This document shows, piece by piece, positions 13,153-24,709 of a DNA stretch of 64,000 nt; the first letter of the stretch is position 1, and the number at the start of each line of letters is the position of its first letter. Made by a program: the position numbers and the translations under genes. The DNA lies in contig DUNU01000015.1 in the NCBI GenBank assembly GCA_012839185.1, positions 1 to 64,000 of the forward strand. The letters run 5' to 3'. Origin of the DNA: Clostridiales bacterium. Its GTDB lineage: Bacteria; Bacillota; Clostridia; Oscillospirales; Acutalibacteraceae. Below the pieces are notes generated by a model. That model did no database searches. It had not been told where the DNA came from and worked only from the letters and a program-made list of their open reading frames with translations.

Positions 13153-14268
13153 ATGACAAATCGTGAAAGAACAATGAACATCCTTCATTTTAAGGATGCG
13201 GACAGAATGCCGGCAGTCCATTTCGGTTATTGGGGTGAACTTCTTGTTGAGTGGGCTGAGCAGGGTAAAATTCCTCATCATTTAGCGGAAAGAAATTATG
13301 ACGGAAGCGACAAGGACAGAGAGCTTGATAAGCTTATCGGCTGGGACTTCAACTGGTCAAGAACAGCAGGGGCAAACATTGATTTATCACCGGGTTTTGA
13401 GCATAAGGTGCTTGAAACTTTGCCTGACGGCTCTCAGAGAGTACAAACGTGGACGGGTGCCATCGAAAGAGTAACTCCCGGAGTTGTCTCCATCCCTTCG
13501 GAAGATGATTATCTGTTAAAAGACCGTTCTGCATTTGAAGAATTATATTTACCTAAAATGCAATATTTTGAAGACCGTGTCAATGTCGGATATTTCAAAT
13601 CCCTTAATGACAAAAGAGATTGGGATTTGCCTTTGGGTATATTTCTCGGCAGTGTTATTGGTAAGATACGCGATATGTGCACGGTAACAGGCATGAGTTA
13701 TTTAATTTACGATGAGGATGAAGAACTTTTTGCCGATATAGTAAATGCATATGCGGATATGCAATATAAGTGTATAAAACAAATTTTGGAGACCGATGCA
13801 AAATTTGATTTCGGACATTTCTGGGAAGATATTTGCTATAAAAACGGTCCTTTGATTTCTCCCGAATTATTTGATGAACTTACCGCTGAGCACTACAAAA
13901 GACGCACCGATTTATGCAAAGAATACGGGATTGATATTGTCTCTCTTGACTGTGACGGTGTGGTTGAAAAACTCCTTCCGACTTGGGTAAATAATGGTGT
14001 GAACACAATGTTCCCGATAGAAATTGGTGTTTGGGGCGATCAATTTTATCCCGCCCGACAGAAATTCGGTAATAAGGTATTGGGTGTCGGCGGTATGGAT
14101 AAAACTGCATTCAGGCGTGATAAAGCGGCGGTTGATGCGGAATTGGAGAGAATGAAAAGACTTGCTTCCGAAGGTGGTTTTATTCCTTGTCCCGATCATC
14201 GACTTATGCCCGGTTCAAAGTTTGAACTTGTACAATATTATGCAGAGGAGGTTAAGAAATGTCTGTAA
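13153..14268 (+). CDS. Uroporphyrinogen decarboxylase-fold methyltransferase
   Basis: A 371-residue URO-D superfamily protein of the MtaA/methyltransferase type rather than true HemE. It begins NRERTMNILHFKDADRMP, a typical opening of these proteins, and carries GHFWEDICYKNGPLISPELF and VGGMDKTAFRRD. The last two are typical of corrinoid-dependent methyltransferases; the conserved decarboxylase Arg/Asp pattern of HemE is not seen. It overlaps the next gene, which encodes a corrinoid protein, by ten bases. The pair probably moves a methyl group to or from the cobalt centre. The methyl donor, perhaps an O-methylated sugar or aromatic, is unknown. Confidence 0.8.
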   Translation: MTNRERTMNILHFKDADRMPAVHFGYWGELLVEWAEQGKIPHHLAERNYDGSDKDRELDKLIGWDFNWSRTAGANIDLSPGFEHKVLETLPDGSQRVQTWTGAIERVTPGVVSIPSEDDYLLKDRSAFEELYLPKMQYFEDRVNVGYFKSLNDKRDWDLPLGIFLGSVIGKIRDMCTVTGMSYLIYDEDEELFADIVNAYADMQYKCIKQILETDAKFDFGHFWEDICYKNGPLISPELFDELTAEHYKRRTDLCKEYGIDIVSLDCDGVVEKLLPTWVNNGVNTMFPIEIGVWGDQFYPARQKFGNKVLGVGGMDKTAFRRDKAAVDAELERMKRLASEGGFIPCPDHRLMPGSKFELVQYYAEEVKKCL

Positions 14269-17906: not shown

Positions 17907-17912
17907 TTATGC

Positions 17913-18340
17913 TGCCGGCGGTGGGACTCGAATGCTGACGCATTCGCTATCCTATTTATAACGCAACTTGCTCCTCCTTCGGAGTACCGCTCGTTATGCG
18001 TATTGGGTTCTCGTCCCACATTTACAAAGATAAAGAAAAAAGGATTGCTGAAACAATCCTTGTCTTTTATGGTGCCGGCGGTGGGACTCGAATGCTGACG
18101 CATTCGCTATCCTATTTATAACGCAACTCGCTCCTCCTTCGGAGTACCGCTCGTTATGCGTATTGGGTTCTCGTCCCACGTTTACAAAGATAAAGAAAAA
18201 AAGGATTGATGTAACAACCCTTATCTCTTTTGGTGCCGGCGGTGGGACTCGAATGCTGACGCATTCGCTATCTTATTTATAACGCAACTCGCTCCTCCTT
18301 CGGAGTACCGCTCGTTATGCGTATTGGGTTCTCGTCCCAC
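17913..18340 (-). repeat. Tandem array of three tRNA-Leu 3'-end repeat units
   Basis: Minus-strand units run 18340-18231, 18179-18070 and 18019-17913 (110, 110 and 107 bases, period 160-161). Each opens with GTGGGACGAGAACCCA, 14 of 16 matching the reverse complement of the tRNA-Leu T-arm. Next comes ATACGCAT, a hairpin-forming stretch (CTCC-gaa-GGAG), and GCGTTATAAATAGGAT (TAAGAT in the first unit). A second hairpin CGAATGC-gtca-GCATTCG merges into the tRNA-Leu 3' end TTCGAGTCCCACCGCCGGCA. CCA is present in the first two units and lost in the third. The opening GTGGGAC can pair with GTCCCAC at the end, closing the unit. Each unit is followed by a copy of the tRNA's terminator. Small reading frames here are artefacts of the repeat. 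Confidence 0.92.
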
Positions 18341-18390: not shown

Positions 18391-18477
18391 TGGTGCCGGC
18401 GGTGGGACTCGAACCCACACGGTATTGCTACCAACGGATTTTGAGTCCGTCAAGTCTGCCAATTCCATCACGCCGGC
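18391..18477 (-). tRNA. tRNA-Leu (CAA anticodon), CCA encoded
   Basis: Read on the minus strand from 18477. Acceptor GCCGGCG pairs with CGCCGGC, discriminator A, then CCA. Anticodon stem ACGGA/TCCGT closes the loop CTCAAAA, giving CAA (Leu). A long variable arm typical of Leu tRNAs is present. T-arm TGTGGGTTCGAGTCCCAC. The tandem array lies directly behind it. Confidence 0.97.
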
Positions 18478-24170: not shown

Positions 24171-24245
24171 TGGGGTGTAGCCAAGCGGTAAGGCAACGGA
24201 CTTTGACTCCGTCAGTCGTGCGTTCGAATCGCGCCATCCCAGCCA
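24171..24245 (+). tRNA. tRNA-Gln (TTG anticodon), CCA encoded
   Basis: Acceptor TGGGGTG pairs with CATCCCA, discriminator G, then CCA. Anticodon stem ACGGA/TCCGT closes the loop CTTTGAC, giving TTG (Gln). T-arm GTGCGTTCGAATCGCGC. A tandem array of 3'-end copies lies behind it. Confidence 0.97.
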
Positions 24246-24253
24246 AGAGAAAG

Positions 24254-24287
24254 TACCATAGCTAAATAACAGCTATGGTATTTTTTT
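24254..24287 (+). terminator. Terminator of tRNA-Gln
   Basis: TACCATAGCT (24254-24263) pairs with AGCTATGGTA (24271-24280), followed by seven T. Near-identical copies follow array units 1 and 2 (about 24408-24441 and 24564-24597). Confidence 0.9.
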
Positions 24288-24293
24288 CTGTAA

Positions 24294-24709
24294 CGCGATT
24301 CGAACGCATACGCATCTTTTTTCGACTTTAGGCGAAAAAAGGCGTTATAAATAGGATTACTGCCGAAGGCGATGCCTTCGGGTCGCGCCATCTCAGCCAA
24401 GAGAAAGTACCATAGCAAAATATAGAGCTATGGTATTTTTTGTTCTGTTTCGCGATTCGAACGCATACGCATCTTCTTTCGCTCTAGGCGAAAAAAGGCG
24501 TTATAAATAGGATTACTGCCGAAGGCGATGCCTTCGGGTCGCGCCATCCCAGCCAAGAGAAAGTACCATAGCCAAATATAGAGCTATGGTATTTTTTGTT
24601 CTGTTCCGCGATTCGAACGCATACGCATCTTCTTTCGCTTTAGGCGAAAAAAGGCGTTATAAATAGGATTATTGCCGAAGGCATTGCCTTCGGGTCGTGT
24701 CATCTCAGC
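24294..24709 (+). repeat. Tandem array of three tRNA-Gln 3'-end repeat units
   Basis: Units run 24294-24399, 24451-24555 and 24607-24709 (103-106 bases, period 156-157). Each opens with CGCGATTCGAACGCA, an exact reverse complement of the tRNA-Gln T-arm. Then come ATACGCAT, a hairpin (TTCGC/GCGAA) and GCGTTATAAATAGGAT. A second hairpin CCGAAGGC-gat-GCCTTCGG runs into the tRNA-Gln 3' end, TCGCGCCATCCCAGCCA in unit 2, one mismatch in unit 1. The third unit ends TCGTGTCATCTCAGC and has lost CCA. Units 1 and 2 are followed by near-identical copies of the tRNA terminator. The opening CGCGA can pair with TCGCG at the end. No credible protein frame is present. Confidence 0.92.

Follow-up and report, generated by a model that had tools for sequence, protein, structure and literature searches.

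The window analyzed here, a 64,000-nucleotide stretch of a clostridial draft genome (1.93 Mb in 23 contigs, 97.9% complete), contains two arrays of short tandem units, each located downstream of a tRNA gene and on the strand of that gene. The first array, on the plus strand, follows tRNA-Gln(TTG) and consists of three units with a period of 156-157 bp; the second, on the minus strand, follows tRNA-Leu(CAA), also consists of three units (17910-18340) and belongs to the same family. In the list below and throughout, D denotes the segment of a tRNA from the T-loop to the 3' end.

24171..24245, plus strand: host tRNA-Gln(TTG), identified with ARAGORN and Rfam; the unit arms derive from its T-arm and 3' end (D)
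24246..24293, plus strand: terminator hairpin and spacer between tRNA-Gln and unit 1, recurring after units 1 and 2 (sequence; TRF period 156)
24294..24399, plus strand: Gln unit 1, 106 bp; inverted T-arm CGCGATTCGAACGCA at 24294-24308, copy of the tRNA 3' end at 24377-24399
Core of Gln unit 1, plus strand: hairpin P2, ACGCAT (24310)...GCGT; GCGTTATAAATAGGAT at 24342-24357; then hairpin P3
24451..24555, plus strand: Gln unit 2, 105 bp; layout as in unit 1, exact copy of the tRNA 3' end with CCA
24607..24709, plus strand: Gln unit 3, 103 bp, the last; copy of the tRNA 3' end decayed, without CCA and without a terminator copy
18391..18477, minus strand: host tRNA-Leu(CAA), head of the second array of the window
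18231..18340, minus strand: Leu(CAA) unit 1; inverted T-arm GTGGGACGAGAACCCA, Gln-type P2 core with GCGTTATAAATAAGAT, P3, exact tRNA-Leu 3' end with CCA
18070..18179, minus strand: Leu(CAA) unit 2
17910..18019, minus strand: Leu(CAA) unit 3, CCA decayed

All three Gln units open with CGCGATTCGAACGCA, the exact 15-nt reverse complement of the tRNA-Gln T-arm, a match far beyond chance (the expectation for a 15-mer in ~400 nt is ~1e-6); the closing copy of the tRNA-Gln 3' end has one mismatch in unit 1 and none in unit 2, and is decayed in unit 3. A previous reading of this stretch from the letters only (hereinafter, the sequence-only reading) had described the three units with their coordinates and period, the T-arm inversion, the tRNA 3' end copies with CCA in units 1 and 2, and the terminator copies behind these two units, and all of this is confirmed in the sequence. 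Overlooked in that reading were the Leu(CAA) array, three other arrays of the same family and six loci of a second family. The core common to the Gln and Leu(CAA) arrays is ACGCAT-hairpin-GCGTTATAAATA(A/G)(A/G)A(C/T), followed by a second hairpin; the arms and the terminators of each array are those of its own tRNA.

Two families of units in the host genome and its relatives

Pattern and model searches of the host genome identified 11 units of the family that is represented in the window (family I), distributed among five tRNAs: three units each behind Gln(TTG) and Leu(CAA), two each behind Thr(GGT) and Leu(TAA), and one behind Leu(TAG). All 11 are located behind tRNAs, on the tRNA strand, with none elsewhere in the host genome, and the family I core pattern itself matches tRNA-linked places only. 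The exact core is absent from the 397 other genomes of the host family and from a collection of 84,980 genomes (from which the host's own records were possibly left out); two weak model matches in other genomes of the family were discarded as chance, as were all 33 matches of the core pattern in viral collections.

The second family (family II), with the core GGAC...ACAGTCCGGTGGACTGT...GTCCGTGGGCGTGTC, comprises 8 units at six tRNA loci of the host, namely, behind Gln(CTG), two Gly(GCC), Ser(GCT) and Ser(GGA), and, at the sixth locus, within the T-loop (TT^CGA) of two upstream copies of tRNA-Gly(CCC). At this last locus (L318; G000:C8:75820-76300), the two promoter-proximal tRNA-Gly(CCC) copies carry the family II core in the T-loop and are truncated at the 3' end, and an intact tRNA-Gly lies downstream of both broken copies; the duplicated part here is the 5' one, not the 3' one. 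Altogether, 19 model-matched units of the two families were found at 11 of the approximately 44 tRNA genes of the host (46 matches of tRNA models, including the two interrupted tRNA-Gly(CCC) copies; the downstream side was inspected for 43 genes), all on the tRNA strand and within tRNA arrays. The units are 103-124 bp long, too short for a gene, and the last units of several arrays are decayed. Families I and II have no obvious sequence in common, and hence their treatment as one kind of element rests on the layout.

To describe family II beyond the host, we used a covariance model built from the cores only, with the inverted T-arm and D excluded. Matches were detected in 63 of the 398 genomes of the host family, which represent 35 genera (the genomes are species representatives, often drafts, so that the counts are phylogenetically non-independent, and the E-values, obtained from short calibrations, are rough). 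Among the 29 loci that were fetched, 22 have full flanks, the other seven being located at contig ends or unscorable. In 19 of these 22, a same-strand tRNA ends 51-88 nt upstream of the core, with 6-14 nt of inverted T-arm ahead of the core and, in all but two of the 19, a D copy of 9-22 nt after it. At the other three of the 22 loci (L340, L349 and L358), a CCA-ended tRNA-like 3' end is present behind the core, and in two of the three also ahead of it; no tRNA is called at any of these. The target tRNAs of family II include Ala, Arg, Gly, Glu, Ser, Gln and Met. Across the 35 genera, the cores keep constant unpaired motifs, such as GCGTGCGTGCC, which implies sequence-specific recognition. An inverted T-arm, ACGGACTTGAACCGCC, is also found behind tRNA-Val(GAC) (L319; G000:C14, ~13490-13590), without a core or a D copy, possibly as a relic or the first stage of a unit.

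When copies unrelated to tRNAs were sought, no clear tRNA-free copy of family I or family II came to light. The evidence strongly supports the proposal of the sequence-only reading that the units belong to a small non-coding element with tRNA 3' ends as its targets or sites of growth: all family I and family II units of the host lie behind tRNAs or within tRNA arrays, the core-only model recovers relatives behind tRNAs in 35 genera, and one copy has moved between two tRNA-Ser genes (see below).

The common layout in bacteria and archaea

The common layout consists of the tRNA, a terminator or spacer, the inverted T-arm, core hairpins and, again, the tRNA 3' end. A pattern that captures only this layout (inverted T-arm, 47-77 nt, T-arm) was run on the 84,980 genomes and matched at least 119 stretches. 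The matches listed represent 127 distinct places: 63 share at least 14 nt with the 3' end of a tRNA located within 450 bp, another 29 coincide at least in part with predicted tRNAs, and for many of the remaining 35 the match is shorter and the tRNA lies at a distance of 36-73 nt. The lineages represented among the matches listed are Halobacteria, Holophagae (Geothrix), other Acidobacteriota, one member of Thermoplasmatota and several Clostridia; the cores differ by lineage and the layout is the same. The GTDB family of the host also contains an Oscillospiraceae MAG (SIG572): G250, which is assigned to that family, carries an identical unit at contig coordinates identical to those in the SIG572 record. 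A related layout pattern yielded 63 matches (33 forward and 30 reverse) in 14 genomes that were picked because they already carried matches, compared to 0 for the reversed-pattern control. Halobacterial copies lack CCA, as do the tRNA genes of Halobacteria, and CCA is intact in most of the bacterial copies.

Two further searches were not productive: in viral collections, the layout pattern matched almost only ordinary tRNA pairs, and a looser version applied to the host family matched mostly adjacent real tRNAs, along with the loci L085 and L090. At L090, a hairpin-rich stretch contains a Gut-1 RNA (RF01706; positions 1764-1840), which lies immediately behind tRNA-Tyr and directly follows a tRNA-Thr unit.

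Movement of the units and competing explanations

In the host genome, the segments that follow tRNA-Ser(GCT) and tRNA-Ser(GGA), 142 and 141 bp long, respectively, and including the terminator, the inverted T-arm and the core, are identical in 138 of 142 positions. Their surroundings are unrelated, both in the upstream flanks (67/120) and beyond the second D (46/80), and so are the tRNA bodies. Each segment is closed by the D of its own tRNA, and the two D differ. The shared segment is a direct sign of mobility between tRNAs. The inverted T-arm at Ser(GGA) reads GAGGG, which is the T-stem type of Ser(GCT) and points to a transfer that most likely ran from GCT to GGA. Empty sites were identified in haloarchaea. 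In one genus, tRNA-Lys(CTT) of L267 abuts the flank that is found after the second D in L266 and L268; furthermore, L284 lacks a unit, and in L283 an exact copy of the spacer comes after that unit. As compared here, these empty and filled sites show clean insertion. Different core types occur in tandem at a single tRNA in L275 and L276.

The data show restriction to tRNAs, clean insertion in haloarchaea, transfer of a segment between two tRNA-Ser genes with the own D of each target on both sides, tandem growth, covarying cores and a wide distribution. In our assessment, each array probably consists of one or more copies of a mobile DNA cassette, small and non-coding, for which tRNA 3' ends are the only insertion sites; it would insert in the orientation of the tRNA and be moved either in trans or by the replication and repair machinery of the host. 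The moving segment (E) would consist of the terminator or spacer, the inverted T-arm and the core hairpins (110-145 bp), and after insertion it would have the target tRNA's own D (20-25 bp) on both sides, which would leave the tRNA intact and make E harmless. The Ser case would be explained most simply if E was inserted and the D of the target was duplicated in the process, and tandem arrays would result from further insertions or from unequal exchange between the repeats of D and terminator. The acting form of the cassette may be a folded single strand or cruciform DNA, and the mover either an undiscovered factor in trans or host replication and repair; host Xer recombinases and replication and repair proteins, which are universal in both domains, are candidates. 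On the host-repair route, template switching could take place at the T-arm, which is nearly palindromic (GGTTCGAATCC / GGATTCGAACC); the layout tRNA(D)-spacer-inverted D-core-D has the appearance of two such switches, and they would account for the inverted T-arm and for its match to the host tRNA. A mixed model seems most likely, in which the conserved core is spread by copying and, over time, host tRNA sequence is used to rebuild or mend the arms. Against insertion of such a cassette stands the observation that the terminators of family I are tRNA-specific, so that D and the terminator must have been duplicated in place in that family, which fits tandem duplication as well as insertion.

More tentatively, the cassettes could represent an undescribed class of gene-free mobile DNA of bacteria and archaea that is confined to tRNA 3' ends and spreads in the form of a folded DNA hairpin with target-tRNA arms, its mover being a conserved host process and not a transposase. 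The non-subscription literature that we searched contains no description of tRNA-restricted, target-armed, gene-free cassettes. Genes for tRNAs are classic landing sites for phages and islands, and here ~130 bp of non-coding DNA would settle at these sites with no enzyme of its own. Confirmation would open two questions to testing: by what means an element that lacks genes locates every tRNA, and whether the replication or recombination proteins of the host suffice to move DNA between tRNA genes. The cassettes would also explain odd arrays of pseudo-tRNAs and terminators that are ignored by annotation tools and could mislead the detection of att sites and genomic islands.

In several respects, the cassettes resemble MITE, PATE, REP/BIME and small mobile repeats, all of which are short, non-coding, hairpin-rich, multi-copy and moved in trans or by unknown means; haloarchaea, in particular, carry small palindromic mobile repeats, PATE and SMR (PMC3119063). 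Unlike these, the cassettes were found only at tRNA 3' ends and in one orientation, have arms of host tRNA sequence and are bounded on both sides by a 20-25 bp tRNA repeat. With respect to MITE specifically, they are likewise short, non-coding, dispersed and multicopy (the 19 host units), but in place of the terminal inverted repeats of an autonomous transposon they have arms of host-tRNA sequence that differ from one tRNA to another. The Y1 (HUH) transposase (PF01797) that characterizes PATE or REP of the IS200/IS605 type is absent from the 97.9% complete host genome, and the reverse transcriptase (PF00078) of group II introns, retrons and retroelements is absent from most of the carriers tested, including G000, G066, G398 and G401. 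Casposons have a long target-like repeat at the tRNA 3' end and grow in tandem. The cassettes share both features and differ in the lack of any gene; no Cas1 was detected in 8 of the 12 carriers or relatives tested, including G066 (with 9 family II matches), G398, G399 and G400. The Y1 transposase, Cas1 and reverse transcriptase were all rejected as common mobilizers since they are not common to the carriers. A Cas1-family gene with a score far below those of the other Cas1 matches is located on the contig of the window, ~70 kb past the window end (G000:C9:133417-134091).

An explanation that dispenses with an element altogether, and that we consider unlikely, is that the units are pure products of template switching: replication comes to a halt at the tRNA, and the nascent strand folds back before it returns, giving D-X-loop-X'-D'-core-D-X, a tiny inverted triplication, and the likeness of the cores spreads by microhomology jumps via the universal T-arm sequence. 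T-arms are near-palindromes, the inverted copy can continue beyond the T-arm to include part of the variable loop (L132, L135 and L184) or of the acceptor (L102), the spacer itself is palindromic in L106 and L283, and no dedicated enzyme is common to the carriers among the three that were searched for. Moreover, template switching is documented to make inverted copies and to create, maintain and repair perfect stems (PMC8794818). However, the inverted T-arm at Ser(GGA) came with the segment instead of being re-templated from the adjacent tRNA, the cores are conserved over the 35 genera together with constant unpaired motifs such as GCGTGCGTGCC, and the choice of site is the same in distant bacteria and archaea. 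Template-switch mutations are not known to yield conserved cores confined to tRNA 3' ends across phyla. A separate observation concerns haloarchaeal tRNA-Val (L106 and L214), where a long palindromic spacer is continuous with the inverted acceptor end, the insertion being a zigzag of inverted copies.

We regard as decidedly improbable the possibility that the units are att-site relics, or trans-mobilized att sites, of tyrosine recombinases, such that a 130-165 bp circle (D-terminator-inverted T-arm-core) would integrate by strand exchange in the 7-nt T-loop, as phages and islands do, or as a folded attC-like site. The D copy starts in the T-loop in all arrays, which is the classical sub-site of tRNA integration, an intact tRNA is restored as with tyrosine-recombinase elements, and the direct D repeats with different cores in tandem (L275 and L276) resemble att-site accretion; a tRNA loop with a palindromic stem is a classical recombinase core site (PMC8371274). 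The folded inverted-repeat shape also resembles attC and, similarly to integron attC arrays, the cassettes form tandem, same-orientation units with long imperfect palindromes and variable tips, a likeness that concerns the fold only, the cassette arms being tRNA-derived and a cassette ORF being absent. In contrast to tyrosine-recombinase elements, the cassettes are only 110-165 bp long, have no integrase gene in the unit and share cores among many different tRNAs; neither an integrase gene nor a larger element with such ends was seen, and the arms vary with the tRNA. Furthermore, conservative exchange predicts a donor D beside the recipient tRNA, whereas Ser(GGA) has its own D on both sides of an E that derives from Ser(GCT) or from the same source, a later gene conversion being possible.

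Fold of the cores

Returning to the mobile cassette, the core helices are maintained by compensatory changes: the covariation score was reached by 0 of 500 shuffles, and two-sided helix changes outnumber one-sided ones in Halobacteria (36 vs 4), Holophagae (60 vs 0) and Clostridia (141 vs 22). The fractions of G-U among the paired cells are 1.0%, 0% and 3.3%, respectively, compared to 3.6% (p 0.07), 0% and 7.3% (p 0.007) in matched tRNA acceptor stems; the deficit is large against all-tRNA controls and smaller with the matched controls, Holophagae are uninformative, and the low G-U content is suggestive only as a pointer to DNA action. On the tRNA strand, the hairpin tips include 39 GNA triloops vs 2 TNC, the respective numbers for the adjoining terminators being 2 and 3; GNA triloops are unusually stable in DNA. 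Fold energy by strand goes in opposite directions in the two groups compared. On the whole, the units more likely act as DNA than as RNA.

It is very unlikely that the units encode a structured non-coding RNA, either tRNA-like or an anti-T-arm/anti-anti switch, that read-through transcription of the tRNA operon would produce, with processing at the tRNA-like 3' end. Strong covariation and the CCA that is intact in most bacterial copies are compatible with such an RNA, in which the inverted T-arm could choose between two mutually exclusive pairing partners, the upstream tRNA and the second D, but a terminator separates the tRNA from each unit, G-U pairs are few, the core families differ between tRNAs, and the units are mobile between tRNAs. 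The structured RNA with a CCA tail that the sequence-only reading had offered as its alternative is unsupported: Halobacterial copies do not encode CCA, nearly all helix changes are from one Watson-Crick pair to another, stability favors neither strand consistently, and a search of the units with Rfam 15 covariance models returned only tRNAs above the threshold, the weak sub-threshold matches looking like chance. Finally, an assembly or duplication artefact, or neutral decay of genomic islands, to which the origin of the window from a 23-contig draft and the decayed last units might point, has a negligible probability and, for the class, the artefact reading is already refuted by the presence of the layout in complete chromosomes (L125, NZ_CP119785; L141, CP100465) and in many independent genomes, with compensatory changes across species.

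At two of the loci (L132 and L164), the terminators after successive units have wholly different stems between the same flanks, as if whole hairpins had been replaced.
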